A stretch of 64,000 nucleotides of DNA. Source: Morinoia aosen. Lineage: Eukaryota; Arthropoda; Malacostraca; Amphipoda; Talitridae. Below are positions 1 to 46,100 of the stretch, piece after piece. The notes beneath the pieces were generated by a model. That model worked only from the letters and a program-made list of their open reading frames with translations. It was not told the DNA's origin and made no database searches. The stretch spans positions 33,102,183 to 33,166,182 of the forward strand of contig CM059560.1 of NCBI GenBank assembly GCA_030386875.1, written 5' to 3'. Made by a program: the position numbers and the translations under genes. Position 1 is the stretch's first letter. The number at the start of each line of letters is the position of its first letter.

Positions 1-1500
1 ATGCTTATTCCACCAAAACCCAACATTGCCGCAACCAGTACAGCACCTAGAATAAAGTCATCAACATATAGAGTACAACTTAAGTATATCGATCCAGCTA
101 AACCAGTGGACAAGACAAAAATCTTTGAAACAACCTTCAAAGACCTAAATGCTCCTCTCATTAGACTGACTTCCACCAGTACAGGTTTCTATGCAGTAAC
201 TGACGATGTCACTTCGGTTGATAAACTAACTTCCAGTAAAGCAATCAATGCATTCCAAAAATTGAATATAATTCCAGTTATTCCCCCCGACTTAAGAGCA
301 AAAAGATCCATTTTTGTCAGACAAATTGATAATGAAATAGGTGCAAGACCTGCCGATGAAATCAAATCAGAAATCCAACAGCAAAATTCATGGTTATCAG
401 TCACAGAAATAGTTAAAATAAAGCAATATACTCATCTAATCAAAATTATAACTTCCGACACCACCACTGCACAGAGGATCCTCCGAGATGGGTTTTATAT
501 GTATCATACAAAAATTACACCCTATCAATGTGAACAAGAAAAATACACACATATCCTCATCTGTTACAAGTGCTATAAATATGAAGACCACCCAACATCC
601 AAATGCACCCAAACAACACAATATTGCTCAGAATGTTCTTCACAAGAACATACTTACCAACAATGCACTAGCACACTTAAACAATGCCTCAATTGCAATG
701 GACCACACAGAACATTAGCATCAAGTTGCCCGTATAGGAAAAATGTAATCAAACAAAAAATCGAAAATGAAAAACAGGAGCATCACCAACAAACTCAAAA
801 CACCTATGCTGAAATTGCAAAGCACGCAATATTACAAACAAACCCCCCAGAACACACCCTCACACTAACATCACAAACACATATTAAACTGACAGCACTC
901 ATCTTGGAAGCACACATAGCAGCACTGAACAGAACTCAGAAATTTGGCGAACTTCTTTCACAATCTTTAAAACTGAACTTCAATATCGATACTACTTTCC
1001 CAGATCGTGACTCAGCCGCAATTTTCAACTTTTACTACAAATCAGAAACAATACCACAGGAGACGGAAACGGAACAGGAAAAAACGGTGGATGTCTCTCT
1101 GGAATGTGAGCAGGTACAGATGGAGGAGGCTATGGACACGGAGGCTGGAACTAAACGAAGGATAAGTGGTGATGATTTGGGTAATTCAAGCATAGTATTA
1201 GATAACAAACACAACCTTCAAATGAAACTGTACAGAAACTTCATAGACAATTCACCAATCCCAGAAAATCCCCCAATAGAATGGTATATCCGGGAACTCA
1301 GCAGACAAGAAAATGATAAAGGATTAAAATTCACAGTTCAGGACATAAGATCACAAACATTACTGGATTACATCATGAGTAACAGGGTCCAATTCACAAG
1401 AACAAAAATAAACATAATCCCCCATGAGGACTTCATAAATCTTCCAAGACACCAGTCAATAATAGCAGCCACCAAAAAACCAAAAAAATTAATTGCTTAA
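1..1500 (+). CDS. LINE ORF1, Gag-like RNA-binding protein with three CCHC knuckles
   Basis: This is the nucleic-acid-binding protein of the Jockey-like element, which in this family coats element RNA. Residues about 40-175 have the character of the RRM-like Gag core. They are followed by three zinc knuckles at about 183-242: CYKCYKYEDHPTSKC (Cx2Cx5Hx4C), CSECSSQEHTYQQC (Cx2Cx4Hx4C) and CLNCNGPHRTLASSC (Cx2Cx3Hx6C). The knuckle spacing is typical of Jockey/I-type Gag proteins. The C-terminal half is acidic (around 345-390) and then unremarkable. The ORF is already open at base 1, and the ATG there may be an internal methionine, so the N-terminus is uncertain. Stop TAA is at 1498-1500. Confidence 0.88.
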   Translation: MLIPPKPNIAATSTAPRIKSSTYRVQLKYIDPAKPVDKTKIFETTFKDLNAPLIRLTSTSTGFYAVTDDVTSVDKLTSSKAINAFQKLNIIPVIPPDLRAKRSIFVRQIDNEIGARPADEIKSEIQQQNSWLSVTEIVKIKQYTHLIKIITSDTTTAQRILRDGFYMYHTKITPYQCEQEKYTHILICYKCYKYEDHPTSKCTQTTQYCSECSSQEHTYQQCTSTLKQCLNCNGPHRTLASSCPYRKNVIKQKIENEKQEHHQQTQNTYAEIAKHAILQTNPPEHTLTLTSQTHIKLTALILEAHIAALNRTQKFGELLSQSLKLNFNIDTTFPDRDSAAIFNFYYKSETIPQETETEQEKTVDVSLECEQVQMEEAMDTEAGTKRRISGDDLGNSSIVLDNKHNLQMKLYRNFIDNSPIPENPPIEWYIRELSRQENDKGLKFTVQDIRSQTLLDYIMSNRVQFTRTKINIIPHEDFINLPRHQSIIAATKKPKKLIA

Positions 1501-1502
1501 AA

Positions 1503-4238
1503 ATGAACCTAAAGAAAGTAACAATAATTCAACATAACGTGCAATCTTGGAATACAAATAGAATCACACTATCCAACATATACAACTCACTGGACCCAGA
1601 CATAATACTTATCAATAGTCACTGCCTCATAAATAACCAGCCCCTTAAGATCTTTAATTACAATACATTTTATTCAAATAAGCAAAACGAAAACCACGCA
1701 GGCACTGCAATAGCACTTAGGAAAAGCATTTCGTACAGACTTCACGATGATTTCCACACGGACATGTTAGCAGTAACAATAGATACGCTACAGGGACCAA
1801 TCACCATAGGTACTACATATACACCTCCGAGAACAGACTACCTGAATTTTATAGACTTCCACATGCTTTTCAATAGACCGCATCCAACCTATTTTCTAGG
1901 TGACATAAACGCCGCACATAGCATAACTGGATACTCACATAGGAACAATAGAGGAAATCATCTTTTCTACCTAATCTCAAAGCAGAAATGCACTCACATC
2001 GGACCCTTTTTTCCCACCCTAATAACTCACAATAGCACCACCTCACCCGATGTAGTTTTGCAAAACAAGCATGCATTTCATAATATTTTCTTGAAGCCTG
2101 GCCCCATCACACCTTCGGATCACATTCCAATAATCGCTACCATCACAGCCAACCCAATACAAATTCCCATCAAACCGCGAAGACACTTTCGTAAAGCAAA
2201 TTGGAATTTATATAAACAGTTACTATCACCTGTCACACCCCCTTTACAACCGGATCCAACTATAAACGAAATAAACAAGTACCTAAACACATGGACTAAA
2301 CACGTACAGGATGCCACAAATACAGCTGTTCCACTCATAAATTACAGAATAATCCCGGGGATCAAACCAACTCACGAAACTTTGACATTACAAGCACAAT
2401 ACCGACAGACAACTCAATACATCTCCAGATATGGGCCATCTATAGATTTGAACCGACATTTGAACGCAATAAGAATCCGATTACAAGAAATATACAAAGG
2501 CAAATATCAGCAAACCTGGGAGGAATTAATTCACAGTCTCAAACTGCAGGAGGATCCGAAAATGTTTTGGTCCTCCTGCAAAAGGATGATGGGCAGTAAC
2601 ACTAAACAACAAATACCATATATAGAACATAATAAAGAGCAGTTACACACTCCTAAAGAAAAAGAACCCATCTTCAGAGCACACTGGAAGGAAATATTCA
2701 CTGAACAGGACGATCCCCTCTTCGACAAGGAGCACATTGAAACGGTACAAGAGCAAATGAGCAACTTAGCAAATACAATCAAACCATACCGAACGGGAAA
2801 TATCAACAGACTGGACCCTATACATTTTCCCCCTATTACATTCGAAGAATTATTACAATCACTGAAGACGTTCAAACAGAAAGCACCAGGGACAACGGAA
2901 ATAACCACTTTACAACTTAAAAACTTACCAGAAAACATGATTCACTTTCTGATTTACATTTTCAATATGTCCATATCTGCTGGTTACTTCCCGAACAGTC
3001 TAAAACACGCCATAATGATTTTCCTCCCAAAACCAAACACATCTCTAAAATCAGTTCAAAATTACAGACCAATTTCCCTCCTGGATGTACACGGCAAATT
3101 ACTAGATAAAATTTTAAATAATAGATTAACAAATTTCCTTACAATTCATAACCATTTTAATTGCAGACAACACGGATTCAGATGTAACAGAGGCACTCAC
3201 ACCGCACTGGCAACCCTTCACGAAACAATTTCCATCCAATTAGCTCAAAAATTTACAATAGACATTTGCTTAAGAGATGTTAAAAAAGCATTCGATAAGG
3301 TATGGCACTCTGGTCTCATCTTTAAACTTTCGCAAATTAATCTTCACCCTATGTTTCTCCGGACCCTGAATAGTTACCTCAATGACAGGACAGCCTCAAT
3401 AAGAATATCCAATTACTTAGGACCGCGATTCTCACTGTGCACAGGTGTACCCCAAGGAGCATGCCTATCCCCTACACTGTTTAGCTTTTATACCCATGAT
3501 TTACCACCGCCGCTACCTAAAACAGACTACATATGCTTTGCAGATGACATCACACAGATAACAGCCGGAAAATATTCACCAAAATATGCAACAGCCAATA
3601 CCAAAAGAGCAATAGAACAAATAAACACATTTGAAAGTAAATGGAAAATATTAACCAACAGTAGCAAATTTGCAATAATCCCCATAAATAGAAGGAAAAC
3701 GTTTGAAGTTACCATAAACGGCAAATCAATACCGTACACAAATAAAGGAAAAGTCCTGGGGTTGAACATAACTACACATGGTATATCATCACAAGCCTCC
3801 ATTAGACAAGCAATAGCCTACAAGAATCTAGAAAAAATTTACCGTTTTACTTACCTTCCTACAGAAACCAAACTGAAATTATACATGGCCTTTGTAAGAT
3901 CAGCATTAATATACCCAGTCATACCTTTACACACAGCATCAGCAACAGCAATATCCAAATTACAAAGAGTTCAAAACAAAGCACTTAGATTTATTACCGG
4001 CACTAGTTTAATAGAAGCAGTACCATCACAACACCTGCACAATCATCTAAATATCCCTCCCATAAACATACTGCTGCACGAGCATGCAAACAGGATCTGG
4101 CACAATATACAGCAATTCGATCCTGACCTGTACACAAAATTAAGTTTTCCTCCGGAGCTCATCCCCAATCAACATTCCCGATTTAAAAGCTCTAGACTAC
4201 TTGCATTGGCCCCCCCTCCACCTCCGAAATATACATGA
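1503..4238 (+). CDS. LINE ORF2: AP-like endonuclease plus reverse transcriptase
   Basis: This 911-residue polyprotein would nick target DNA and carry out target-primed reverse transcription. The endonuclease domain starts at about residue 8 (QHNVQSW), with GDINAAH near 133 and the catalytic SDHIPI near 205. The RT domain shows YRPISLLDVHGKLLDK near 520, DVKKAFDKVW, GVPQGACLSPTLFSFY and the active-site FADD near 679. The C-terminus carries the usual Jockey tail (RVQNKALRFITG; HSRFKSSRLL). No RNase H domain is present. The start ATG lies two bases after the ORF1 stop, which suggests reinitiation. No internal stops are seen, so the enzyme may be functional. Confidence 0.93.
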   Translation: MNLKKVTIIQHNVQSWNTNRITLSNIYNSLDPDIILINSHCLINNQPLKIFNYNTFYSNKQNENHAGTAIALRKSISYRLHDDFHTDMLAVTIDTLQGPITIGTTYTPPRTDYLNFIDFHMLFNRPHPTYFLGDINAAHSITGYSHRNNRGNHLFYLISKQKCTHIGPFFPTLITHNSTTSPDVVLQNKHAFHNIFLKPGPITPSDHIPIIATITANPIQIPIKPRRHFRKANWNLYKQLLSPVTPPLQPDPTINEINKYLNTWTKHVQDATNTAVPLINYRIIPGIKPTHETLTLQAQYRQTTQYISRYGPSIDLNRHLNAIRIRLQEIYKGKYQQTWEELIHSLKLQEDPKMFWSSCKRMMGSNTKQQIPYIEHNKEQLHTPKEKEPIFRAHWKEIFTEQDDPLFDKEHIETVQEQMSNLANTIKPYRTGNINRLDPIHFPPITFEELLQSLKTFKQKAPGTTEITTLQLKNLPENMIHFLIYIFNMSISAGYFPNSLKHAIMIFLPKPNTSLKSVQNYRPISLLDVHGKLLDKILNNRLTNFLTIHNHFNCRQHGFRCNRGTHTALATLHETISIQLAQKFTIDICLRDVKKAFDKVWHSGLIFKLSQINLHPMFLRTLNSYLNDRTASIRISNYLGPRFSLCTGVPQGACLSPTLFSFYTHDLPPPLPKTDYICFADDITQITAGKYSPKYATANTKRAIEQINTFESKWKILTNSSKFAIIPINRRKTFEVTINGKSIPYTNKGKVLGLNITTHGISSQASIRQAIAYKNLEKIYRFTYLPTETKLKLYMAFVRSALIYPVIPLHTASATAISKLQRVQNKALRFITGTSLIEAVPSQHLHNHLNIPPINILLHEHANRIWHNIQQFDPDLYTKLSFPPELIPNQHSRFKSSRLLALAPPPPPKYT

Positions 4239-4297
4239 ACCAACAATCTTACCAGGCACACCTACTAAGACAAATTCCAGTCCTGTTATGAGGACGT

Positions 4298-4407
4298 GGG
4301 GGAAGACCAAATTAATTTCAGTGATATTTTTATTTTTTTGTTTTCTGGGGTTTTGGCGAGCGGTAGGACGGTCTTCCCCCCCATGGGTGGGAAGCCAAAA
4401 CCCCAGA
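4298..4407 (+). other. Interlocked inverted repeats in LINE 3' UTR (possible H-type pseudoknot)
   Basis: Two perfect inverted repeats interleave in the order A-B-A'-B'. A is GGGGGAAGACC at 4298-4308, paired with GGTCTTCCCCC at 4370-4380. B is TCTGGGGTTTTGGC at 4344-4357, paired with GCCAAAACCCCAGA at 4394-4407. The geometry is that of an RNA pseudoknot with 11-bp and 14-bp stems and loops of 35, 12 and 13 nt. Only the base complementarity is observed; folding and RT recognition are inference. Confidence 0.7.
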
Positions 4408-30339: not shown

Positions 30340-33300
30340 ATGGAAAGCTGTCAGAGCAAAAATGAAAAATGTCGTGAATTGTCCAATAGTGTTGTAAGGT
30401 TTGGATGTATAAATGTGCGTGGATGGAATGCAGGAAAGTTAAATGACCTTGTAGCAGAATTTGAGAATGGAGATTTGGATTGTGTTGGTGTAGTAGAGAC
30501 CCAAATGCGTGATAGAGTCAGTTTAAAATGTAAGGAGAGTAAGTACTACATGATTGGAAAAGGGCGTGTAAGTTGGCAAAAAAGAGGTGGTGGAGTTGGT
30601 CTCATTGTAAAAAATGCTCTAAATTGGAAATTAGAAGAAATTCCTGTTGGAAATGAACCTGAGAGTGAAGATCTGTTAGTAATAAAGTGTGAAAGAATGC
30701 ATGCCAGAGAATGTGTTATTGTGGTTGTATGCTATATGACAACTGATGGTATTTTAGCTCATCAAGAGAATGTAAAAAAATATGAAATATTAACAAGAAT
30801 TGTGCAAGAGCATTGCAGATGCCCTCTGATTTTGATGGGTGATATGAATGGCCATGTTGGTATACTTGGTGAGCCTGTGAATGCAAATGGACAAAAATTG
30901 ATTGATTTCTGTGATGAGAATGAACTTGAAAACCTAAATGTAACAATAGGAAATGGCTTGCATACATGGCAAAGCAGGGAATGTAAAACTGCAATTGACT
31001 ATATGATAGTGAATAGTAGAGCAAGAGAGTGTGTCAAAGAAATGTTTGTAGATGAAGATGATTTTGATATTGATAGTGACCATAAAATGCTTGTACTAGA
31101 ATATAATTGGGGTGGAAAGGAGCCGATGCAGAAGGCCAGCAGAGTAAGAGAAAATTGGCGTATTAAAATGGCAAACTGGGAAGAATTTAGAAATGAATTG
31201 AGTAGATGTAACTGGAACAGGTGTGGAAATGTAAATGACCTAAATAAGGAGATTGCAAGAACCTTGTATGATGTGGCAGAGCAAAAGATCGGTAGAATGA
31301 AATGCAGGAAAAGTACAGGGAATGCTAGGTGGTTTACGAGTGAGATAAAGGAAGAACGAACGAGAAGGAAGACTTTAAATAAAAAACAACGCAGTATGAG
31401 GAAAATGTATGAAAGACGCAGAATTACTGAGGATGAATGGCAGAGGGTATGGAATGAGTACAAGGACCAGCAGAAGAAAGTAAAGAGAATGATCAATGAG
31501 GCTAGGGTTAAAGAAGAGAGACACCAAGTTGAAAATCTAAGAAAGAAAGGTCCAGATGGAATAAAAGATTGGTATAGGTTTATACAAGGTAATGATAGAG
31601 GTAGTGAAGTTCAAGTTGATGAATTAGTAGTCAATGGTTGCAGTGTGCAAGATAGGATGCAAATGGTGAAAGCAGTTGAAGAATACTGGGAGGACATTGG
31701 TGGAATGAATGAGCAGGTTACAGATGATGAACCAATAAATTTTCTGATAGATGAACATGAACTGCAAATGGAAGACGAAATCACTTGTGAAGAGATTGTA
31801 AGTTTTTTGAAGAAAGTGAAAAATGGAAAGGCATGTGGCCCTGATAAGATACCATATGAGTTCTATAAATGTGGAGGAGAGAGTGTAGTCAGTATGTTGA
31901 AATGTTTATTTGATGAGATATGGAAGAGTGAAAGAGTACCGGATGACTGGAACAAGTGTAATGTAGTTCTGTTGCATAAGGGTGGACATAAGAGTATGAA
32001 AGAACTTAAAAATTACAGACCAATTGCACTGGGTGACACCGTATGTAAGATCTTTTGTGGTATTTTGAATGAGAGAATGAAAAATTTAGTTGAGGAATTA
32101 GGAGTCCTGGGAGAAGAACAGAATGGTTTTAGGCAAGATAGATGGGGGGAGGATAATCTGTTTGTAGTGAGTGAAATAATTGAGCGAATGAAGAAGGATA
32201 ACAAGAAGGTATATTTAGCATTCCTGGATATTGAAAAGGCGTATGACAGAGTGGATCGGGTTAGGCTGTTTGAAATTTTGAGAAAAGTTGGTTTTAGCAG
32301 AAAAATAGTGAACATTGTACAGAGTCTGTATGAGAACACAAGTGCTATCTACAGGTTAGGAAATTTGGAAACAGGGCAAGTGAGGAGTGTTAGAGGAGTG
32401 AGACAGGGCTGTACTCTGTCCCCCCTGTTGTTTGGATTGTACACAGAAGAATTAGCAGTTCGACTGAGAGGGAGTGGTTTAGGACTGAAAGTTGGTAATG
32501 AGAGACTGAGCTGTTTGTTGTATGCTGATGATGTGGTTGTGGTTAGTGAATGTGGTCATGAACTACAAAGGATGCTTGACATTGTGAATGGATATAGTAC
32601 AGATTTCAAGATGAACTTTGGTGCCGATAAAAGTAAGGTCATGGTTATAAATAGTGATGAGACTGATAGAGACAGACTGTGGAATATTGGAGAAATCAGA
32701 ATAGGTAGAACAAAAGAATACAAATATCTAGGTTGTATGATGAGTGAAGATGGATGTACTAGAACTAAAGGTGAGAAAGTGGCTAAAGCAATGCAGTGGA
32801 GTGGACGGTTAGGCAGTGTGGCCAGATACAGAGCAAACAAGTACGAATGTGTGAGAGGAATGTGGAAGTATGTTGCTGTACCTAGTGTCATGTATGGTAT
32901 GAGTGCTCTTGCTTGGAATGGAAGTGATCTTGAAAAGCTGGATGTGATACAAAATAAGGTAGGACGTGTAGCATTGGGTGCTCCGAAATGGACAGCTATA
33001 GAAGCCATTAGAGGTGACCTAGGGTGGAGCCTATTTTCAGAAAGAATGATGAAAGCTGTGCTGAATTATAAGGTGAGAATTGAAAGAATGCAGAATAGCA
33101 GGTGGGTAAGGCGAATCTTTGAGTGGAATCTGAGTGTAAGCTATTGGGAGAAAGTATGTTGGGGGCATGCAAGGAAACTCAGTATGCAAAAAATTATTCA
33201 TGTTAGAATTGGGAGACCTGTGGATGACTGGAGTTTAATAAATGTAGGAGGTGTAGGGCCTGAGTGGGACTGCAAGAGGTGGAAGAAAGAGATTGAGAGA

Positions 33301-33756
33301 CAAACAAAAGAGTATGGATTGAATAAGTGGAAGCTTAGCATGATGCGGAAGCCTACACTTAACTGGTATATGAAAAAGAAAGCACCTAAGTTTGAGCTGT
33401 TCTATGATGGTAGTTTTGGAAGTCAACTCTTGTTTGCTGTGAGATGTAAGTCATTGAGTGTGAACAGACGTACATGGAGATGGAATGAGAATAATAACAG
33501 ATTATGTCAGCAGTGTAATAGTGGAGTAGAGGAAACAATTGAGCATTTTGTGCTGGAATGTAGTAAGTATGAGCAAGAGAGAGAGAGTTTTATGAATGTG
33601 GTGTCTGAGCAGTATGGAGAGAATGAGTGGAATGCCAGATGTGCTGAAGATGATTGCGGTATGAGCTGTCTTGCTGGATTGGATCAGGAGTGTAATGCGA
33701 GTATCACTGAGGCTATGAAAGTGTTTCTTGTGCGTGCCTGGAGTAAGAGACAGTGA
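30340..33756 (+). CDS. LINE C copy 1 ORF2: endonuclease-reverse transcriptase, intact
   Basis: This 1138-residue protein begins at an ATG directly abutting the ORF1 TGA. Endonuclease: FGCINVRGWNAGKLNDL near residue 21, VGVVETQMRD, MGDMNGHVG near 167 and DIDSDHKMLVLEYN near 246. RT: NYRPIALGDTVCKIF, FLDIEKAYDRVDR, GVRQGCTLSPLLFGLY and the active-site YADD near 728. The C-terminus has a Zn-binding-like block CQQCNSGVEETIEHFVLEC near 1055, common in LINE RTs. No RNase H is present. It is uninterrupted although the element is 5'-truncated. Similar proteins are sometimes mis-annotated as host genes. Confidence 0.95.
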   Translation: MESCQSKNEKCRELSNSVVRFGCINVRGWNAGKLNDLVAEFENGDLDCVGVVETQMRDRVSLKCKESKYYMIGKGRVSWQKRGGGVGLIVKNALNWKLEEIPVGNEPESEDLLVIKCERMHARECVIVVVCYMTTDGILAHQENVKKYEILTRIVQEHCRCPLILMGDMNGHVGILGEPVNANGQKLIDFCDENELENLNVTIGNGLHTWQSRECKTAIDYMIVNSRARECVKEMFVDEDDFDIDSDHKMLVLEYNWGGKEPMQKASRVRENWRIKMANWEEFRNELSRCNWNRCGNVNDLNKEIARTLYDVAEQKIGRMKCRKSTGNARWFTSEIKEERTRRKTLNKKQRSMRKMYERRRITEDEWQRVWNEYKDQQKKVKRMINEARVKEERHQVENLRKKGPDGIKDWYRFIQGNDRGSEVQVDELVVNGCSVQDRMQMVKAVEEYWEDIGGMNEQVTDDEPINFLIDEHELQMEDEITCEEIVSFLKKVKNGKACGPDKIPYEFYKCGGESVVSMLKCLFDEIWKSERVPDDWNKCNVVLLHKGGHKSMKELKNYRPIALGDTVCKIFCGILNERMKNLVEELGVLGEEQNGFRQDRWGEDNLFVVSEIIERMKKDNKKVYLAFLDIEKAYDRVDRVRLFEILRKVGFSRKIVNIVQSLYENTSAIYRLGNLETGQVRSVRGVRQGCTLSPLLFGLYTEELAVRLRGSGLGLKVGNERLSCLLYADDVVVVSECGHELQRMLDIVNGYSTDFKMNFGADKSKVMVINSDETDRDRLWNIGEIRIGRTKEYKYLGCMMSEDGCTRTKGEKVAKAMQWSGRLGSVARYRANKYECVRGMWKYVAVPSVMYGMSALAWNGSDLEKLDVIQNKVGRVALGAPKWTAIEAIRGDLGWSLFSERMMKAVLNYKVRIERMQNSRWVRRIFEWNLSVSYWEKVCWGHARKLSMQKIIHVRIGRPVDDWSLINVGGVGPEWDCKRWKKEIERQTKEYGLNKWKLSMMRKPTLNWYMKKKAPKFELFYDGSFGSQLLFAVRCKSLSVNRRTWRWNENNNRLCQQCNSGVEETIEHFVLECSKYEQERESFMNVVSEQYGENEWNARCAEDDCGMSCLAGLDQECNASITEAMKVFLVRAWSKRQ

Positions 33757-34016
33757 CTGGAATGAGCCAGTCTGGTGGAGTGGGCTGTAGTGACCCAATG
33801 TGCCGGGGGATGGTGTTTTGACGCACTGGCTGTCCCGGTGATGCCTTCCAATGGAGGCTTGTGACAAGGATCGTAGATCCTGAGTAGTTTAGTGGACAAG
33901 TCTGGTACCAGGCGCTGAACTCTTTGTGTGAAAATTGTGGAGGGAATTGTAGGCCGTTACAAAGGCCCCGACACTGTCGGCCCTCAAGTTCAAGTTCAAG
34001 TTCAAGTTCAAACGAA
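33757..34016 (+). other. LINE C 3' UTR with (TTCAAG)n tail
   Basis: This matches 40838-41086 of copy 2 through CTGGAATGAGCCAGTC, GGATGGTG...TTGACR and GGCCGTTACAAAGGCCCCGA. GGCCGTTACAAAGGCC (33951-33966) is a short self-complementary hairpin just before the tail. Short tandem tails instead of poly-A are typical of CR1/L2-type LINEs. Confidence 0.75.
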
Positions 34017-34566
34017 TGAGCTGTCAGGTGACTCAGGTCAGGTTGCACACTCAGTGGACAGTGGTTGGCAGTTGGCAAATGGTTGGCAGTGACGGATACG
34101 ATGTGCACGTGCTTCTGATCTTCCGACGAAAATTGTGGTGAATTAAAGTGAAGTTGCTGAAAAACTGGTATAGTTTGTATATTCACGTGAGTACAGTGTG
34201 TGACTTTGTATGGAGTGCTAGTGAGAGTAGTTTTTTTTTTTTTTTTGTTGCGTGACAGTTGAGACTGAGCATTGGACTTGGGTGTGGTGACTTGCAATTT
34301 TTTGACTGAGGTGTTTTGACTGGTAAGCTTTCTTTGCGTATAAAGAGTGTAGTGTGTGACATTGTAGAGAGTGACTGTGAGAGTAGTAGGAAACGTTTTT
34401 ATTTCTTTTGGTTTGATAACTTGATTTTCAGTAGACTTGGTGAGTGAAGACTTCTTCTGCCTGTGAAATTTGTACTGAGAGAGAAGTCTGGGTATATCTG
34501 AAGGATATGTCAGTTGTCAATTTTCCACTTTTTGGTGCCTGAACCTAATTAATTGAATCAAAATAA

Positions 34567-35091
34567 GGTAAATGTATAGTGTTTGACCATAATGGATTTT
34601 CCACTTTTTGATCAACAAACATTGTTGATGAGACGAAAATAAACAAGTTTTCTTCAATGCAATTTCCGTCGGAAATGAGTATTTTAGAAGTTAGAGCGAG
34701 AAATGAGTTACCGTAACTCCAGTATTTGAGGCGGGGAAAAATATGCCGCGCGGTCCGACGTGAAAGTAAACAGGCGTTCCCGCGCGCCAACCAAGCCGAC
34801 GAAGAGAAGCAAACCCCCTATTACAAACGTAAAAAGGTTAGGTCGTGAGGGGTAGTAACAGTTCTTTTAGTGAAAATTATAAAACTAAAAGAACTGTTGC
34901 CACCCCTCACGACCCAACCTCTTAACGTTTGTAATAGGGTGTTCCGGTAACTCATTTAACGCCATAACTTTTAAAATACTCATTTCCGACGGAAAGTGCA
35001 TTGAAGAAAACTTGTTTATTTATGTCTCATCAACCATTTTTCTTGATCAAAAAGTGGAAAATCGATTATGGTCAAACACTATACATTTACC
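34567..35091. mobile_element. Palindromic element P1 nested in T, 8-bp duplication CAAAATAA
   Basis: GGTAAATGTATAGTGTTTGA at the left and its complement at the right are flanked by CAAAATAA at 34559-34566 and 35092-35099. The arms fold onto each other nearly throughout. The core is a tight palindrome of ACCCCCTATTACAAACGT, AGGTTAGGTCGTGAGGGGTA and ACAGTTCTTTTAGT, centred near 34870. The left arm has about 85 bp (34727-34811) with no partner. The outer arms resemble T itself (TTTTCCACTTTTTG, AAATAAACAAGTTTTCT and GGAAATGAGTATTTTA), so P1 and T belong to one family. Confidence 0.9.
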
Positions 35092-35452
35092 CAAAATAAA
35101 CAAGTTTTCTCCTATGCACTTTCCATCTCAAATGAGTATTTTACGATTTATAGCGGTAAGTTTAGTTTCGTCTGTGATGACGAATGCGCTCGAATAAACA
35201 GCTACTCGTCGATTTTCGAATTTTTGTTGCTTGAATCATGGTAATAACATCGAAATAAACAACTTTTCTTCTATACACTTTTTTTGTCAAATGAGTATTT
35301 AACAAGGTATAGCGGTAGGTTTGGTTTCGTCTTTGATGACGATCGCGCTGGAAGCGAGTGCGCATTGCAGTGTTGCTGTCCGACGTGCTCCTTGAATAAC
35401 TTGCCGCTTCAAACACTGGAATTGCGGTAAGTCATTTACCGCTATAACTAAT

Positions 35453-36127
35453 GGTCAATGTGAAGTTTAATGCAATCACGGAAAATAATAATGCCGATCC
35501 CAGGAATCACTACAGGAACACATTTCAGAACGTTTTACAAGAATGACATTCTGCTCGCTGATGCGTTATTTTTGAATAATTGAACTTTGAAGTTGGCCTT
35601 TGCGCCAAAGGAAGCGAGCGCGTGAAACGGAATTTAATTAATAACGGAAGCTATTACAAACGTAAAGAGGTTGGGTCGTGAGGGGGAGGCACGGTTCTTC
35701 TAGTGAAAATTATAAATAAAGCTTCTAACCCACCCATTAGGGTGACGACCGCAATCTTGTTGACATCGGGTCCAAAATGGCGGCGCCCATGGTGGTCGCC
35801 ATGTTAGACCCGATGTAAACAAGATTGCGGTCGTCACCCTAATGGGTGGTTTAGAAGCTTTATTTATACTTTTCACTAAAAGAACTGTGGCTACCCCTCA
35901 CGACCCAACCTCTTTATGTTTGTAATAGGGGGTTAGCTTCCGTTTTTAATTAAATTACGCTCGCTTCCTTGGGCGCGCGACGGCCAACTTCAACGTTCAA
36001 TAATTCGAAAATAACGCATCAGCGAGCAGAATGTCGTTCCTGAAAAACGTTCTTAAATGGGTTCCTTTAGTGCTTGTTTGGGATATAATTATCAATTTCC
36101 GTGTTTGCATTAAACTTCACATTGACC
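35453..36127. mobile_element. Palindromic element P2 nested in T, 8-bp duplication TAACTAAT
   Basis: The ends GGTCAATGTGAAGTTTAATG and CATTAAACTTCACATTGACC are perfect inverses, flanked by TAACTAAT at 35445-35452 and 36128-36135. The arms match inversely through GTTTTACAAGAATGACATTC, the GGTTGGGTCGTGAGGGG core and GTGACGACCGCAATCTTGTT, to a centre near 35790 containing AAAATGGCGGC. Cores are shared with P1 and P3. No reading frame is plausible. It is a non-autonomous fold-back-like element of unassigned superfamily; 8-bp duplications are known for hAT, P, Merlin and Zisupton. Confidence 0.92.
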
Positions 36128-36271
36128 TAACTAATAAAATACTCATTTGAGACGGAAAGTGCATAGAATAAAACTTGTTTATTTCGATCTAATTAACTAT
36201 GCCAAGGCATCGAAATTTACAAAATCGATAACTGACATATCCTTCAGATTTACCGAAGTCTGTGTTTGAGG

Positions 36272-37411
36272 ATGGCAAGAAATAGGACTGGTCGTAGGAA
36301 GGGAGGTGCAAGTGGAATGGATGAGGAGATTGAGTGCATGACTTGTAAAGAGTGGATAGATATAGATGCATGCAAAGGTTTGAGAGAAATGAGTCGGAGA
36401 AAGTTAAGTGATCTTGTGTTTACGTGCTGGAAATGTTTGAATGATGAGAGTAAGAAGTTGAAAGAGGAAGTTGAGAGATTGACAATTTTGATGGTTGCTT
36501 TAGAGGCTGACTTGAAGGATGAAAGGAAGCTGAACGAAGGAAAGAATGAGAATGGTGCAAATGCAGTGAATGAAAAGGTAAATGGTGGTGCAAGTAGTGC
36601 AAATGAAGTGGATGATGAGGCAAATGATGGTGCAAGGAGTGTGAATGAAGCAAATGATCGTGCAAATGTGACAGATGAGAGTAGAAGGATGAATGAGCAT
36701 GATGAAAGAGGTACAAATGGAAAGAGAGTGAATGAGCCACCTGTTGAGGTGCCACATGAGGTGCAGGAGCCTGTAGTGGAAGCAAATGAAAGGAAGATGA
36801 ATGGAAAGAATGATCTGAGTGAAAGAATTGAGCAAAAGAGTAGCATGAAAGGGAGAGTAAGACCTATGATTAGAATATGTGGAGATAGCATGGTGAAGAA
36901 TGTTGATAGGTTCGTATGTATGAGTGACAGTAGCGGATGTACGAGCATGAGAGGGAAAGGAGTGGAGGAGATTTGTAGGCATGCTGAGAGAGTGATAGAT
37001 GGAATGGATGAAGGAATGGTTGTACTGCAAGGAGGTGGCAATCGGTTGCTTGAATGTGGGAGAGAACGTACGGTGAATGCAATTATGAAAGTTGTTGAAA
37101 GGGCGCGGAAGAAGAATGTTAGAGTGGCGGTGACTAGCCTCCTAAGAAGGCCTGCGTGTGATGAGGAGTATGAAAGGGTGCGAAAGGAGGTGAATAGAGA
37201 GGTGCATGAAAGGATTATGAGTATGAGAGCTGAGAGTGTGAGAAAGCGTGAGCTGGGTTCCAGCTTCCTTGACATAGATAGCGTGATCCAGGATGGGTGT
37301 TTTCTTGGAGATGGAGTCCATCTTACAAAAGAAGGTGAGATGAAACTCTCCAAGAAATATATCCGGTGGATCAGGGCTACTCATGTCATAATGGAAGGTG
37401 GAACTGGATGA
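36272..37411 (+). CDS. LINE C ORF1: PHD-like zinc motif, coiled coil, SGNH esterase
   Basis: The protein is 379 residues from the ATG at 36272. Order of parts: a CxxC...C...CxxC zinc motif at about 18-53 (CMTCKEWIDIDACKG...FTCWKC), resembling the second half of a PHD finger but lacking the usual His; a short coiled coil at about 55-90; an Asn/Ala/Glu-rich degenerate repeat (KVNGG-, EANDGA-, EANDRA-) at about 95-160; and an SGNH esterase at about 200-375 with RICGDSMVKN, VVLQGGGNRLLEC and GDGVHLTKEGEMKL. PHD and esterase modules in ORF1 are known from CR1-like elements. The frame is intact even though ORF2 downstream is decayed. Confidence 0.88.
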   Translation: MARNRTGRRKGGASGMDEEIECMTCKEWIDIDACKGLREMSRRKLSDLVFTCWKCLNDESKKLKEEVERLTILMVALEADLKDERKLNEGKNENGANAVNEKVNGGASSANEVDDEANDGARSVNEANDRANVTDESRRMNEHDERGTNGKRVNEPPVEVPHEVQEPVVEANERKMNGKNDLSERIEQKSSMKGRVRPMIRICGDSMVKNVDRFVCMSDSSGCTSMRGKGVEEICRHAERVIDGMDEGMVVLQGGGNRLLECGRERTVNAIMKVVERARKKNVRVAVTSLLRRPACDEEYERVRKEVNREVHERIMSMRAESVRKRELGSSFLDIDSVIQDGCFLGDGVHLTKEGEMKLSKKYIRWIRATHVIMEGGTG

Positions 37412-37450
37412 AAGAAAATACGTCAGAGCAAAAGTGAGGAATGTCTCGAA

Positions 37451-40400
37451 TTGTCCAATTGTGTTGTAAGGTTTGGAAGTATAAATGTGCGTGGATGGAA
37501 TGCAGGAAAGTTAGATGACCTCGTAGTAGAATTTGAGAATGGAAAATTGGATTGTGTTGGTGTAGTAGAGACCCAAATGCGTGATAGAGTCAGTTTAACA
37601 TGTAAGGAGAATAAGTATCATATGATAGGAAAAGGGCGTGTAAATTGGCAAAAAAGAGGTGGTGGAGTTGGTTTGATTTTAAAGAATGCTCTAAATTGGA
37701 AATTAGAGGAACTTCCTGTTGGAAATGAACCTGAAAGTGAAGATTTGTTAGCAATTAAGTGTGAAAGAATGCATGCCTGAGAATGTATTGTTGTGATTGT
37801 ATGTTATATGACAACTGATGGGATTTTAGCTCATGAAGAGAATGTAAAAAAGTATGAAATATTAACAAGGATTGTACGAGAACACTGCAGGTGCCCTCTG
37901 ATTGTGATGGGTGACATGAATGGCCATGTTGATATACTTGGCAAGCCGGTGAATGCAAATGGACAAAAATTGATAGATTTTTGTGATGAGAATGAACTTG
38001 AAAACCTGAATGTCACAATAGGAAATGGCTTGCATACATGGCAAAGCAGGGAATGGAAAACTGCAATTGACTATATGATTGTGAATAGTAGAGCAAGAGA
38101 GTGTGTCAATGAAATGTTTGTAGATGAAGATGATTTTGATATTGATAGTGACCATAAAATGCTTGTGCTTGAATATAACTGGGGTAGAAAGGAGTCAATG
38201 CAGAAGGTCAGTAGTGTGAAAGAAAGTTGGCAGATAAAAAAGGCAAACTGGGAAGAATTTAAGAATGAATTGAGTAGGTATAACTGGAACAGGTGTGGAA
38301 ATGTAAATGACCTAAATGGTGAGATTGCAAGAACCTTGTATGATGTGGCAGAGCAAAAGATTGGTAGAATAAAATGTAGGAAAGGGACAGGGAATGCCAG
38401 GTGGTTTACAAGTGAGATAAAGGAACAACAAATGAGAAGAAAGACTTTAAATAAGAAACAACGCAGTATGAGGAAAATGTATGAAATAAACAGAATTACT
38501 GAGGATGAATAGCAGAGTGCATGGAATGAGTACAAGGACCAGCAGAAGAAAGTAAGGAGAATGATTAATGAGGCTAGAGTTAAAGAGGAGAGACACCAAG
38601 TTGAAAATCTAAGAAAGAAAGGTCCGGATGGAATAAAAGATTGGTATAAGTTTATACAAGGTAATGATAGAGGTAGTGAAGTTCAAGTTGATGAATTAGT
38701 AGTTAATGGTTGCAGTGTGCAAGATAGGATGCAAATGGTGAAAGCAGTTGAAGAATACTGGGAGGACATTGGTGGAATGAATGAGCAGGTTACAGATGAT
38801 GCACCCATAAATTTTCTGATTGATGAACGTGAACTGCAAATGGAAGACGAAATCACTTGTGAAGAGATTGTAAGTTTTTTGAAGAAAGTGAAAAATAGAA
38901 AGGCATGTGGCCCTGATAAGATCCCATATGAGTTCTATAAATGTGGAGGAGAGAGTGTAGTCAGTATGTTGAAATGTTTATTTGATGAGATATGGAAGAG
39001 TGAAAGAGTACCGGATGACTGGAACAAGTGTAATGTAGTTCTGTTGCATAAGGGTGGACATAAGAGTATGAAAGAACCTAAAAATTACAGACCAATTGCA
39101 CTGGGTGACACTGTATGTAAGATATTTTGTGGTATTTTGAATGAGAGAACGAAAAATTTAGTTGAGGAATTAGGAGTCCTAGGTGAAGAACAGAATGGTT
39201 TTCGGCAGGATAGACGTAGGGAGGATAATCTGTTAGTAGTGAGTGAAATGATTGAGTGAATGAGGAAGGATGATTAGAAGGTATATTTAGCATTCCTGGA
39301 TATTGAAAAGGCGTATGACAGAGTGGATCGGGCTAGGATCTTGGAAGTTTTGAGAAAAGTTGGGTTTAGCAGAAAAAATAGTAAAAATTGTACAAAATCT
39401 GTATGAGAACACAAGCACAATATACAGGTTAGAAAATTTGAAAACAGGGCAAGTGAGGAGTGTTAGAGGAGTGAGACAGGGCTGTACTCTGTCTCCCCTG
39501 TTGTTTGGATTGTACACAGAAGAATTAGCAGTTCAACTGAGAAAGAGTGGCTTAACTAGGACTGAAAGTTGGTAATGAGAGACTGAGCTGTTTGTTGTAT
39601 GCTGATGATGTGGTTGTGGTTAGTGAATGTAGACATGAACTGCAAAGGATGCTTGACATTGTGATTGGATATAGTACAGATTTCAAGATGAACTTTGGTG
39701 CTGACAAAAGTAAGGTTATGGTTATAAATAGTGATGAGACTGATAGAGACAGACTGTGGAATTTTGGAGAAATCAGAATTGGTAGAACATAAGAATACAA
39801 ATATCTAGGTGTATGCCAAGTGAAGATGGATGCACTAGAACTAAGGGTGAAAAAGTAGCAAAAGCTATGCAGTGGAGTGGACGGTTAAATAGTGTGGCCA
39901 GATACAGAGCAAACAAGTATGAATGTGTGAGAGGAATGTGGAAGTATGTTGCTGTACCTAGTGTCATTTATGGAATAAGTGCTCTTGCCTGGAATGGAAG
40001 TGATCTTGAAAAGCTGGATGCAATTCAAAATAAGGTAGGACGGTTAGCATTGGGTGCTCCGAAATGGACAGCTACAGAAGCCATTAGAGGTGACCTTGGG
40101 TGGAGCCTATTTTCTGAAAGAATGATAAAAGCAGTGCTGAATTATAAGGTGAGAATTGAAAGAATGCAGAATAGCAGATGGGTAAAGCAAATTTTTGAAT
40201 GGAATCTGAGTGTAAGCTATTGGGAGAAAGTGTGTTGGGGGGCATGCAAGGAAACTTAGTATGCAAAAGATTATTCATGTTAGAATTGGGAGACCTGTAG
40301 ATGACTGGAGTTTAATAAATGCTGGAGGTGTAGTTAGGGCCTGAGTGGGACTGCAAGAGGTGGAAGAAAGAGATTGAGAGGCAAACAAAAGAGTATGGAT

Positions 40401-40837
40401 TGATTAAGTGGAAGCTTAGCATAATGCGGAAGCCTACACTTGACTGGTATATGAAAAAAGAAGCACCTAAGTTTGAGATGTTCGATGATGGTAGTTTTGG
40501 AAGTCAACTCTTGTTTGCTGTTAGATGTAAGTCATTGAGTGTGAGCAGACGTACATGGAGATGGAATGAGAATAATAACAGATTATATCGGCAGTGTATT
40601 AGTGGAGTGAAGGAAACAATTGAGCATTTTGTGCTGGAATGTAGTAAGTATAAGCAGGAGAGAGAAAGTTTCATGAATGTGGTGCTTGAGCAGTATGGAG
40701 AGAATGAGTGGTATGCCAGATGTGCTGAAGATGATTGCGGTATGAGCTGTCTTGCTGGACTGGATCAGAAGTGTAATTTGAGTATCATTGATGCTATGAA
40801 AATGTTTCTAGTGTGTGCCTGGAGTAAGAGACAGTGA
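37451..40837 (+). pseudogene. LINE C copy 2 ORF2, broken
   Basis: This is homologous throughout to the intact ORF2 at 30340-33756, but the ORF2 ATG is lost (TGAAAG where copy 1 has TGAATG). In-frame stops include TGA at 37778-37780 (AGA in copy 1), TAG at 38510-38512 (TGG in copy 1) and TGA at 39257-39259 (CGA in copy 1). One- to four-base indels near 39375, 39555, 39810, 40240 and 40330 shift the frame. Domains are still recognisable: GDMNGHVD, SDHKMLVLEYNW, NYRPIALGD, YADD near 39598-39609. It is non-functional. Confidence 0.92.
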
Positions 40838-41086
40838 CTGGAATGAGCCAGTCAGGTAGAGTGGGCAGTAATGACTCAATATGCCTGGGGATGGTGGCTT
40901 GACATACTGGTTATCCCAGTGATGCTGTCCAATGGCAGCTTGTGACAAGGATTGGTAGATCCTGAGTAGTTTAGTGGACAAGTCTGGTATCAGGCGCTGA
41001 ACTCTCTGTGTATAAATTGTGGAGGGAATTGTAGGCCGTTACAAAGGCCCCGACAATGTCGGCCCTCAAGTTCAAGTTCAATTTAA
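40838..41086 (+). other. LINE C copy 2 3' UTR
   Basis: This is the counterpart of 33757-34016, with the same GGCCGTTACAAAGGCC hairpin and about two TTCAAG units at the end. Confidence 0.75.
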
Positions 41087-41087
41087 T

Positions 41088-42492
41088 GAATTTACTTCTA
41101 TTTCGTGTTTAATGGTCGTGATGACCAGTTTGTGCAGTTAATAATTGTTTTAGGCTATCGTTGCCATCATTTGTTAATGTTTTGTAAATGGAATTACAAT
41201 TGGAGATATTATAGAGATCTGAAAGTTCAAGTACCTACTTGAAAATTTTTGAATGAATCATTTGTGTGAACATTATATTCTAGATTCTTTACCGCTTTGA
41301 TGGTTTTTATTTTGCAGAGTGAAAAGTATATTGGTTTTATTTTTATCAGTTCTGTGCCATGCTTCTCTTCTGTATTGCAGGTATGCTGAAATGAGCATTT
41401 GGTAGAGCATTTGTAAAGCTGTTTCAGGGAGGAAAATTTGGTCAATATTTACTTTAATGTTGTCAACGATTTTCATAATTTCGTAGCTAAAAATCAATAA
41501 AGGAACACATTTAAGAATGTTTTACATGAATGACATTCTGCCCGGTGATGCGTTATTTTCGAATTATTCAACTTTGAAGCTGGCTTGGGCGCGCCATGGA
41601 AGCACGCGCGGCTAGCGTAATTCAATTAATAACGGAAGCTAACCCCCTATTACAAACGTCAAGAGGTTGGGTCGTGAGGGGTAGCCACAGTTCTTTTAGT
41701 AAAAATTATAAATAAAGGTTTCTAGTGACGTTTGTTTACATCGACTCCAAGGTGGCTGCCGCCATGGCACCAACCGGTACTGAAGATGGCGGCAGCCATC
41801 TTGGAGTTGATGTAAACAAACGTCACTAGAAACCTTTATTTATAATTTTCACTAGAAGAACTGTGGCTACCCCTCACAACCCAACCTCTTTACGTTTGTA
41901 ATAGGTGGTTAGCTTCTGTTTCCATTGCAAAAACAATGACTGTTTTAGCGCAAAATGGACATTCAGGAGCGCCGTTCGTATAACTTTAAACTTGAATAAC
42001 TCAAAAACTAAGCATTTCCGAGCATATTGTCATTCGTGTAAAACGTCTTAAAATTGACTATATTACCTATCTATAGCTAAGAAATTATGGAAATTGTTGA
42101 CAACATTAAAGTAAATATTGACCGAAAATTTTTAACTTTATTTAGGATTCTGATGGATTTAGATAGTTTAAAACTAATATGAGCAATATGTTTTAGAAGG
42201 TCAGATGTTTATCTATAATAATGCCAAAGAACTTAAATGAGCTGGTTTCTTCAATTTCACCTTCACCAATTTCAATGTGTGGGAGATATATATTTTTCTC
42301 GTATGAGAATGTGATATATTTTGTTTTATCTAAATTATGGCTTATTTTATTAGCGTTAAGCCACAATGAAGCCTTACAAAGTTCATTATTTAAAATCTCC
42401 GCTATCAAAGCGGGTTTTTGGTTTGGAAGGACCGCAGAAAGCATGCTGTCATCATCTAAAAGTATGAATTTGAAAAATGATATAGATTTAAT
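41088..42492 (-). mobile_element. LINE B copy 2, ORF2 segment
   Basis: This continues the copy seen at 27596-27887 and 29611-29637. It starts at ATGAATTTACTTCTATTTCG and matches 22267-22975 of copy 1, covering the RT C-terminal region up to just past the FADD box. Peptides such as ETALQMLYQMLISAYLQYR and TKYITFSYEKN are readable, but frameshifts abound. P3 interrupts it at 41440-42123. It ends where element T2 begins. ORF2 here is dead. Confidence 0.85.
41440..42123. mobile_element. Palindromic element P3, 8-bp duplication GAAAATTT
   Basis: GGTCAATATTTACTTTAATG and the inverse CATTAAAGTAAATATTGACC bound the element. GAAAATTT flanks it at 41432-41439 and 42124-42131, and LINE B ORF2 is contiguous once it is removed. 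The inner part shares with P2 the blocks ATGACATTCTGC, GATGCGTTATTTTCGAAT, GGTTGGGTCGTGAGGGGTAG and AAATTATAAATAAAG. The centre (GTGACGTTTGTTTACATC...) differs from P2, yet its own two arms agree closely. The tip contains AAGATGGCGGC and GCCATCTT (41783-41802). No coding capacity. Confidence 0.92.
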
Positions 42493-43115
42493 GGTATATG
42501 TGAAGCGCTTGCCAGTAATCAAGTTTGAAGTTTTCTGTGCCTAAACGTAGTTAATTAGATCAAGATAAACAAGTTTTCTTCTATGCTCTTTCTGTTAGAA
42601 ATGAGTATTTTATGAGTTATAGCGGTACGTTAATTTTCGTCTTTGATGTTGAATGCGATTGAATAAACAGCTACTAATCAATTTTCAAATTATTGTTGCC
42701 TGAATCATGGTCATAACATCAAAATAAACTACTTTTCTTCTATACACTTTTTGTGGCAAATGAGTATTTTACGAGTTAGAGCGGTAGGTTTTATTTTTTG
42801 CGCAATTGAGCTGTTAAAGTACGTTTGAATACTACATAATTTATTATTAGCTCACCCCGCGGAGCCTGAACCCACTTTTAGGAGTTTTTAGTTATTAACA
42901 CAATAAAAATTTTCACTCAAAAATAATGAATTATAGCGGTATGTTAACTTTTGTCTTAAATGCCGTGAATGCATTCGAGCACGTCAAAAGGAAGCGTCCA
43001 TTGCAGTGTTTCCATATGACGCGCTCAATGAATTACTTCCTGCTTCATACACTAGAGTTGCAGTAAATTATTTACCGCTATAACTCATAAAATACTCATT
43101 TCTGGCGGAAAGTGC
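42493..43115. mobile_element. Second copy of palindromic element T, right end lost
   Basis: This begins GGTATATGTGAAG inside LINE B copy 2 and follows T through GTTAATTAGATCAAGATAAA and the twice-repeated AAATAAAC...AAATGAGTATTTTA...TATAGCGGTA blocks (near 42560-42640 and 42722-42790). It reaches the inverse block TTACCGCTATAACTCATAAA near 43072. The terminal ~60 bp of the right arm and any right-hand duplication are missing, so it is truncated. Confidence 0.75.
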
Positions 43116-46100
43116 ATAGAGGTGAGAGAAAGTTCACTTTATTTTAAAATAGAGGTCAGAGATATTAAAATTATTTCTTACTCAAGAAAAATAATGAGAC
43201 ATATCACTTTTACTTGTTATTTATGGGTACATTATAAGTTTAAGCTTACCCAAGCCACTATAGTGTTCCTAAGAGATAAATGCACCATTTTAAAAGGGAT
43301 TAAGAGAATACAATAATCTATGCCAAAGGTAACTCTTGTCCTTACTTCCTGCACCAGCAGGAAGCTTGAAAGACATTATTGGAAATGGATGAAGCCTAAA
43401 AAAGTAATTATTGCTGAAACAAAGACATTAATTATGTAAGGTCCCAGGCTAAAGGTTAGGCAGGCCTTCTTTTTGTCAAAATAAAATAGATTTTTTGTTT
43501 TGTTACACACTATCTTTTCTTGGTTTACTGCTGTCCTGTTTTTCACCACCTACTACTTTCTTTTTCCACTTTTATTTTATTTCAATAATTTCTTTCTTAG
43601 CTTACTGTTTTTATGCACCTTTCATGTAGATTTTGCATTCCTTTAACTCTATCCTAAATGGTGCCTTCATTCTTCCCCTCTTTGAACATCTTTGTGGTGA
43701 TAAAGGAAGGCTAAAACTTTCTTATCAATCAGAAAGACAGTATTTTATACTTGAAATGGTTTTAAACAAACAAAAAAACCTGTACCATTTCAATAAAAGA
43801 AAAGCTTTTAAAAATTCTGGAAGATCTACTTCTTCCTTATGAGAGTGGGAATCCCTTTAGATACAATTGTAGGCTTCTGAGGGTGCATAATGTTATTCTA
43901 ACAGGTTACTGAATGTTTGTGTCTATTGTTTTTTCCCAAAAACCAAATGATTGAAGAAAATAGAATTCACTTAATGTTTAAAATGTTTTTTGATTGCATC
44001 TCATTCCTGTTCCTTTACTGAAATCTTTCTTAATTTTGTTACAGTTTTCATGGAGGGATAAATCATGATAGCATATTTTGAAGGTCTTAAGTGATGAACC
44101 TCAAACTACCAATACTAACCTGTCCAGCTAAAAAAAAAACACTAGTTTATCAAGGCTTAGTTACAGGTGAGTTCATGCATCTTTTATCGTAGAGTAGGTC
44201 TTGCTAGCTATAACAATGTAAAAAATGTTGAAATAAGTGTTTAATGTTGTAGCATGTAAATATATTAACATTATTGTGTATATATTAAAACTAAAAGGCT
44301 TAGCAATAAATTTGAATTCAGTCGTGGAGTCATGTGGGTGTATTTTTTTCATGCTGTGTGAAAAAGTTTGGAATTGACCTTTTCAATTTTTAATGTATCA
44401 ACAGCTATTATCAATCTGGTGCAAGTATAATTGTTATTATTCTTACTAACCTTCAGAGCAATGAGTGTGTAGTGGTGCTAGAATCCAGTGGAGCTGTTGT
44501 GAGGGTCCAGCAGGAGTGCATTGGGCCTAGGTGCTGCATGGTCTGCAGGCAAGGCAGCAGCTGGTGTTCCTGTTGATAACCTGGTACATACTCTCTGAGT
44601 CTGAAGGGTTAATAGCACCTCTCTTTCTCTTCTGTAGCTCCTTCTTATTCATTTATTGTTCATCTTTAGTTCAAGATCAGGTATGAGTTCTAACTGTTTC
44701 AAAATATTTCAAGTTAAGATTTTGTCCAATCGCATTTTCACTCATAGTTCTCATTGTAAAAATTAATCCTACATTAGGTTTGCTGATTTAATTTTTTTGT
44801 AAAGCTCAAGTTTATTTTTTTAGATTTAGTGTGTCCTACTTTTTTAGTGATTCAACTTATTGCTTTTGTTTTATTTGTTCTAGTTTTCCTTGGTTTTCAG
44901 GAGCTGGTAAAGCTTCATGACTACATATTATGAACAGCTCATGGGAGTATGAAACCATCAATTTTTTTGTCATTAATTATTCTGTATCATTTTCATCAAC
45001 AAATTTAGCTTGCTTTTAAATTTGATCAGTATTACTATCATTTTTTTGTTGCTTTTGCTGGTACTTCTTAAGAACAGGATAGACAATAGGTTTAGTTTGA
45101 TTGAGTTGGTTCATTGTATGCTTTTATAGAGACTAGTGCCTCCAGAGGAAAGACTGTTACATTAATTCAGCAATAGGATTTAGGATTTCCATCTTTTTTT
45201 ACCCTTTACTTCTTTCAGTTTTTATGCCTTTGTTATCTCTTTTTTAATCTTTTTATCTTTTTTAACAAGGATTATTTTCAGATAATGCAAATGTGTAGAA
45301 CATTTTTATAAAACAGACATCTGAGAATTTGTGAATTATTCATTTTCATCTACATGTGCAGAACTAAAAATTTCAAGTGTAATTCCTTCTTAAAATTTGA
45401 TCTTACAGTCACCTTTCATCAAATTGTATCCAGTATACCATGCCCATTAGTGAAGAGCATACCTTGACCTTGTTTTTAACATCAATTACTTTCTTATTCT
45501 TGAACTGCATTTAAATCTCAGGCTAGGTATTACTTTCAATTTAAATTCTAACCTAGATCCTGGCATTGACTATATTATGATAATTCCCTTCATATTCATT
45601 TTCTTGATTTCAAAATGCATATTTTCACTTCCTAATTATGAAGAGTGCATATTTTGGTCAGTTGTACTAATATGTAAACTGTTTTAGAAAGTTATCTTCT
45701 GTTAGGAAAATATTACCTTAGCTTTGATTTGAGTGTAGTTGTCACAAAGTATTTTTTCACAATATTTTGCTTATCATTTCAGTTTTGCTGTGTCCAATTA
45801 GCTAAATAAGTTTTATGTTAAAAAAAAATTATCACTGGAGTCTTCATGCAACTACTGTACTGTACATTGGAACTACTGTAGCAGTTTTTTTATCTTCCCA
45901 CTTGTTTATTTGCATACCTGAAAAAATGTATATGAGCACTACTAATGAGGGTAGCTATAGATTCCTGTGTTCTAATGCAATTGGTTTTTCACAGATTCTG
46001 TCCCCCTCTGCCTCAGCCTTTTGTGCTGGAATTGTGTAAAGGAAACATCTGAAAATTGGGTTCTCTCTAATTTAGGTGAGTTCTTGAATTGGAATGCAGA

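Follow-up and report, generated by a model that had tools for sequence, protein, structure and literature searches.

Abundant, self-nesting palindromic elements in the genome of the amphipod Morinoia aosen very probably belong to the Merlin superfamily

Foldback elements such as FB of Drosophila carry long, hairpin-forming inverted repeats, in which they are like the elements described here, and Galileo is a DNA transposon of the P superfamily, with a P rather than a Merlin transposase, whose copies turned foldback-like. Tm1 of the root-knot nematodes (PMC3169594) for foldback and Mutator-like (MULE) foldback elements, and Galileo (PMC2775673) for foldback-like elements, were taken as comparison systems. 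The Merlin superfamily is defined, in PMC8101967, by terminal inverted repeats (TIRs) of 24–462 bp that start with GG and by target duplications of 8–9 bp, and is stated there to lack the Zn_Tnp_IS1595 domain. In the open-access literature, judged by titles and the openings of abstracts, we recognised no description of palindromic or foldback Merlin elements.

The window, i.e. the whole 64,000-nucleotide stretch of M. aosen DNA analysed here, contains four elements, T, P1, P2 and P3, each of which begins with GGT, ends with ACC and is flanked by an exact duplication of 8 bp in the window sequence. By sequence comparison, these are with little doubt non-autonomous, mostly palindromic (foldback-type) Merlin elements; the assignment is based on the same kind of ends, the 8-bp duplications, the homologous long TIRs and the genes for IS1595-type DDE transposases that possess such ends. 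The features are as follows (window coordinates, strand, feature).

34301–34482, +, 5' leader of a young LINE, the insertion site of T
34483–34490, no strand, target duplication of T, left copy, GAAGTCTG, 8 bp
34491–36254, +, T, very probably a non-autonomous Merlin element, holding P1 and P2; ends GGTATATCTGAAGG / GGTAAATCTGAAGG; 548 bp without the inserts
34559–34566, no strand, duplication of P1, left copy, CAAAATAA
34567–35091, +, P1, very probably a palindromic Merlin element, of 525 bp; T-like ends and P2/P3-like core (apparent chimera)
34836–34919, no strand, core motif pair of P1, GGTTRGGTCGTGAGGGG, in inverted orientation
35092–35099, no strand, duplication of P1, right copy, CAAAATAA
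35445–35452, no strand, duplication of P2, left copy, TAACTAAT
35453–36127, +, P2, very probably a palindromic Merlin element, of 675 bp
35669–35910, no strand, core motif pair of P2, in inverted orientation
36128–36135, no strand, duplication of P2, right copy, TAACTAAT
36255–36262, no strand, target duplication of T, right copy, GAAGTCTG, 8 bp
36266–37411, +, LINE ORF (read as ORF1) just 3' of T, with a GDSL-lipase-like domain (24.3 bits; cut-off, 23.6)
41432–41439, no strand, duplication of P3, left copy, GAAAATTT
41440–42123, +, P3, very probably a palindromic Merlin element, of 684 bp; each half resembles the left arm of the L060 element (see below)
41665–41886, no strand, core motif pair of P3, in inverted orientation; the minus-strand copy has one mismatch
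42124–42131, no strand, duplication of P3, right copy, GAAAATTT
42493–43120, +, T2, a remnant of the T family; left end GGTATATGTGAAG kept, right end lost

The coordinates and 8-bp duplications that an earlier note on this DNA had given for T, P1, P2 and P3 proved to be exact, and the T relative T2 starts at 42493. That note had regarded all of the elements as near-complete palindromes. The description suits P2 and P3, which align with their own reverse complements over the whole length (83.6% and 77.4% identity, respectively). P1 has arms of 154 bp at 91% plus an inner palindrome, and T, which after removal of its two inserts is 548 bp long with arms of 136 bp at 83%, is not a full palindrome.

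The site of T is recognized in other copies of the LINE: the flank lacking T was found over 208 of 208 bases at 99% identity and was unoccupied in all 40 copies scored out of 1310 candidates. Similarly, T without P1 and P2 aligns gaplessly over 548 of 548 bases (94.5%) with the T copy in locus L014. Two LINE copies apparently lie head to tail at 30340–41084 of the window, comprising a reverse-transcriptase ORF (30340–33756), the leader at 34301 that holds T and the GDSL-type ORF at 36266; the LINE 3' part at 40076–41084 contains blocks that are 94–95% identical to 33000–34002.

In the genome of M. aosen (1.99 Gb in 29 contigs), the core 17-mer occurs 6361 + 6295 times on the two strands (reversed control, 0 and 1), the 20-base end of the P2/P3 type 3653 + 3640 times (control, 0 and 0) and the 15-base end of the T type 5826 + 5813 times (control, 0 and 2). 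Among the first 100 places per end pattern, adjacent ends in plus/minus order at element length (500–720 bp for the P2/P3 type and 500–570 bp for the T type) numbered 33 in each of the two lists, with no pair in minus/plus order, and the modal spacing of paired ends was 675 bp for the P2/P3 type and 547 bp for the T type. The counts relative to the reversed controls, together with the oriented end pairs, thus indicate an element family and not a chance occurrence of motifs. A genome search with P1, in which the best 40 of 4298 candidates were scored, yielded the loci L009–L035; 25 of these 27 loci, aligned without gaps and in matching orientation, differ pairwise by a median of 2.3% (range 0.2–6.7%), a value for best-scoring copies and not for a random sample.

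Two facing T-type ends lie 5671 bp apart at 15824007–15829677 of contig C1 (G000:C1), a candidate for a long relative of T or for a nested stack. An inverted 6-kb stretch is present twice on the same contig, in L041 (17000–23000) and L057 (near 7651061–7657061), at 99.98% identity, and this pair is either a recent segmental duplication or an effect of assembly. Palindromes of such size can upset both assembly and genome stability.

The flanks were compared for 197 GGT...ACC pairs with matching ends, sampled from the window and from loci that had been picked for P1 or core content: 8 bases were common to both flanks in 57 pairs, 9 in three, 4 in two, and 5–7 in none. Many of the remaining pairs are internal palindrome pairs or mispairings rather than elements, and others are elements whose duplications have changed or disappeared, e.g., those in L033 and at 2831 of L054 (both 7/8). 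In the P1 loci L009–L035, the duplication is exactly 8 bp in 25 of 27, the two others being L020 (9 bp) and the above-mentioned L033. The duplications are A/T-rich and near-palindromic (both strands pooled): position 1 is seldom T (12%), positions 2 and 3 are A in 57% and 60%, and the base just outside is A in 58%. A scan for GG...CC ends gave 25 rows, which represent 23 distinct insertions (two rows are copies in a duplicated segment), and all of them begin with GGT.

The Pfam domain DDE_Tnp_IS1595 (PF12762), that of Merlin and IS1016, has 101 matches in the genome (all 122 candidates scored), and a search with the transposase protein found at least 116 matching stretches (114 scored of 599 candidates); many of these are disrupted, and identity to the protein of L060 reaches 96%. 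The ends were compared at four transposase loci, namely, three Merlin loci (L060, L061 and L062) and one MULE locus (L059). The Merlin loci contain the following features (coordinates within each locus).

L060, 37–1928, element of 1892 bp with P3-like ends GGTCAATATTGAATATAATG / GGTCAATATTGAATAAAATG
L060, 588–1664, transposase ORF, 358 aa; PF12762 at 4e-15
L061, 297–1364, transposase ORF, 355 aa; PF12762 at 2e-13; P2-like left end
L062, 673–1668, transposase ORF, 331 aa; PF12762 at 3.8e-14; T-like left end

Both ends are complete in L060 only; in L061 and L062 the right end either lies beyond the sequence covered or could not be located. The TIRs of L060 are about 139 bp long (the inverted match, 84% over 146 bp, runs 7 bases beyond each end), and its duplication, CAAATTTC/CCAATTTC, agrees in 7 of 8 bases with one mismatch. 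This element entered the LINE leader that also holds T, at a distance of 18 bp from the T site, and its insertion site is supported by the LINE copy of the window, which there reads GAAATTTG, the complement of CAAATTTC. Longer elements were also sought in 20 regions around single core motifs, where none exceeded 1.8 kb.

The L061 and L062 proteins are 68% and 45% identical, respectively, to that of L060, and D165, D233 and E271, which we take to be the catalytic triad, are invariant in all three. Six N-terminal cysteines (C9, C12, C51, C54, C69 and C84) are likewise invariant, and weak zinc-ribbon matches were found there in two of the three proteins. No Pfam match to Zn_Tnp_IS1595 was listed up to an E-value of 10 in the three proteins, a search in which the HMMER filters drop most weak matches. 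The predicted structure of the transposase was poor (mean pLDDT 35), and a search of solved structures returned only five weak, unrelated matches.

These results agree with the published definition of Merlin (PMC8101967) in ends, duplications, TIR length and transposase domain. T, P1, P2, P3 and L060 all start with GGT, duplications of 8 or 9 bp exist in 57 + 3 of the 197 pairs and at the empty sites, and the TIRs of T (136 bp), P1 (154 bp) and L060 (about 139 bp) fall within the length range, while P2 and P3 are palindromic throughout. A DDE_Tnp_IS1595 gene lies between the same ends in L060, whereas L061 and L062 provide the left end and the gene only. Several points were counted against the assignment: the mismatch in the L060 duplication; the fact that of the three loci L060 alone has both ends; the identity between TIRs of the window elements and those of autonomous elements, which is 80% at best; P1 having no autonomous partner of its own; and the six N-terminal cysteines, as against the absence of a zinc domain stated in PMC8101967.

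The earlier note had been right about the GGT...ACC ends, the 8-bp duplications, the target preference and the character of the elements as a related, self-nesting, non-autonomous group. Its search by end and core motifs, carried out here genome-wide, revealed thousands of motif copies, the duplications tabulated in the sampled loci were predominantly of 8 bp, and the long, transposase-encoding relative that it had suggested looking for exists as L060 (about 1.89 kb, P3-like ends). Its proposal of an unrecognised superfamily, which it would have given up if the ends were those of a known, described family, is not supported: the ends and duplications match those of Merlin, copies with such ends encode an IS1595/Merlin DDE transposase, and the agreement with a described family holds at superfamily rank. 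The candidate of a new superfamily was dropped after L060 had proved to be a complete element with such ends and an IS1595/Merlin transposase. In short, very abundant and confusing nested palindromes can now be placed, with high probability, in a known superfamily.

The presence of MULE and P-type transposases in the same genome was also counted against Merlin; target duplications of both are likewise near 8 bp. MULE domains have 87 genome matches, and long TIRs, a palindromic shape and duplications of about 8–10 bp are typical of MULE foldbacks. It is nevertheless highly improbable that the palindromes are Mutator-like (MULE/Foldback) elements: the three transposase loci carrying these ends are of the IS1595/Merlin type, and in the 4.5 kb of L059, one of the 87 matches, no GG...CC ends bounded by a duplication of 8 bp were found, the single inverted pair there being weak (18 of 30 bases). 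At its MULE match, L059 has an intact ORF of 1003 aa (1307–4318) around which no convincing inverted repeats were seen and whose C-terminal part presumably resembles a Ulp1-type protease and a zinc finger. The P superfamily, which also makes 8-bp duplications, is represented by abundant transposases, many of them in extended ORFs (at least 150 matches, with 150 of the 834 candidates scored), but an origin of the palindromes from it is just as improbable, as at the loci compared their ends are carried by Merlin genes. Among the matches listed, many P-type ORFs exceed 500 aa and reach 1058 aa (e.g., G000 C6:11358085, C21:1280227 and C1:54133514), and several groups of identical score suggest a recent spread of P-type elements.

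The motif copies, numbering thousands, far outnumber the transposase stretches (at least 116), as might speak for a new superfamily with a non-Merlin transposase, in which the Merlin genes of L060–L062 would merely have been inserted. We give this explanation as little credence as the MULE and P readings, for the three transposase loci, of two lineages, each lie some hundreds of bases in from a left end, and these three left ends are distinct yet homologous; L060 is a compact element, with a single gene between its two TIRs; and GG ends with 8–9-bp duplications are the published Merlin signature (PMC8101967).

Within the Merlin reading, the TIRs fall into two groups, T/P1/L062 and P2/P3/L060/L061, between which the identity is 40–52%. 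Closer pairs are P2 and L061 (79% and 80%), T and L062 (76% and 80%) and P3 and L060 (67–73%). The TIR of P1 is 68–71% identical to those of T and L062 and 41–50% to those of the P2/P3/L060/L061 group, whereas its core (complete arm) is 84–96% identical to that of the latter group, and P1 is on this comparison evidently chimeric, its T-like ends being joined to a core of the P2/P3/L060 type. The two halves of P3 are 78.1% and 78.3% identical to the first 333 bases of L060 and 77.0% to each other, while the last 342 bases of L060 are only 56.0% identical to the right half of P3, since the TIR alone is common there. Because its halves are as similar to the left arm of L060 as to one another, P3 appears to derive from the left arm of an autonomous element by mirroring about the midpoint of the inner palindrome. 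Alternatively, the order may have been the reverse, a gene having joined one half of a pre-existing palindrome. P2 consists of an L061-type TIR and the inner palindrome, and the same palindrome lies behind the gene in L061. If mirroring took place, a mirror copy of one end, reaching as far as the middle of the inner hairpin, would have taken the place of the transposase gene and the opposite end of an autonomous element. P3 clearly illustrates how a single end of an autonomous transposon may give rise to a complete palindrome. An IS1595-type transposase supplied in trans probably cuts at GGT...ACC and inserts the elements into A/T-rich, near-palindromic 8-bp sites.

The core, 70 bp long, is 84–96% identical between the families (69–77% for one truncated P1 arm with fewer aligned columns), in contrast to 40–80% for the TIRs of different families and 71% for the DNA of L060 and L061 over the gene. 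It switches position, lying to the left of the gene in L060 and to the right in L061, and RNA folding of the core palindrome of L060, upstream of the ORF, gives −147 kcal/mol (z −18.7), although so strong a fold would be expected of any such palindrome. The high conservation, the switch of position and the fold favor the idea that, beyond mere common descent, Merlin elements carry in the core either an independent small mobile element or a regulatory hairpin under selection. However, of 27 distinct core places (30 rows less three counted twice in overlapping loci; one further pair is in the duplicated segment), 19 are flanked by Merlin ends on both sides, five on one side and three on neither; no duplication of the core's own was noticed on unsystematic inspection; and recombination between elements could homogenise the core without any function, so we regard that idea as rather unlikely. 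We read the core instead as a module that has probably been spread by recombination among Merlin elements, for which a regulatory role is possible. Thousands of non-coding elements carry the inner palindrome in mirrored form, but the more specific notion of a portable hairpin with a function, swapped among Merlin lineages, which could be a promoter or a source of double-stranded RNA silencing the transposase, is more doubtful still. The palindrome centres (35717–35863 and 41713–41838 of the window) contain ATGGCGGC-type motifs, with AAGATGGCGGC in P3; ATGGCGGC, which we assume to resemble a YY1 site, occurs 18 times, where 1.4 would be expected, in the 174 kb of loci picked around the core, some of them overlapping or duplicated.

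An empty site could be mapped for 19 of 58 elements with exact duplications (host library of seven sequences, E-value 1e-8), and the host was a family member in 13 cases (T in nine, P2 in three and a P1 relative in one) and the LINE in six. Positions 69–76 of T (CAAAATAA) are occupied by P1 in the window, by an oppositely oriented P1 in L016 and by an element of the 682 type in L050/L051. The P1 copies of the window and L016 are 99.0% identical when one is reversed (62.9% forward), whereas their T hosts are 96.1% identical over 76 bases and 93.0% over 358; because the hosts diverge more than their P1 copies, a single composite of T and P1 that flipped later is unlikely, and the site was counted as having received three separate insertions, as these alignments suggest. 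Further sites hit in T are 51–58, 71–78, 169–176, 172–179, 295–302, 422–429 and 425–432. Abundance and sequence preference, with T carrying preferred sites, account for the self-nesting without a special mechanism, and the 8-bp site of T that was hit three times provides a natural test of self-targeting. The 682-type palindrome of L050 (4080) and L051 (3864), at G000:C1:2894079 to 2923563, is interrupted near its centre by about 29.5 kb of other DNA with CAGGG...CCCTG ends, flanked by repeated GGTGGCTG, which presumably represents a hAT-like insertion of great length.

Foldback and MULE foldback elements, with the features familiar from FB, belong to another transposase superfamily, whereas 8-bp duplications together with GGT ends characterize the elements described here. 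With the Merlin superfamily, as defined in PMC8101967, these elements share the 5'-GG ends, the 8–9-bp duplications, the range of TIR length and the DDE_Tnp_IS1595 transposase. They differ from that definition in being near-complete palindromes with a portable inner core, in having several homologous TIR families, in their very high copy number and in the six invariant N-terminal cysteines of the transposase.
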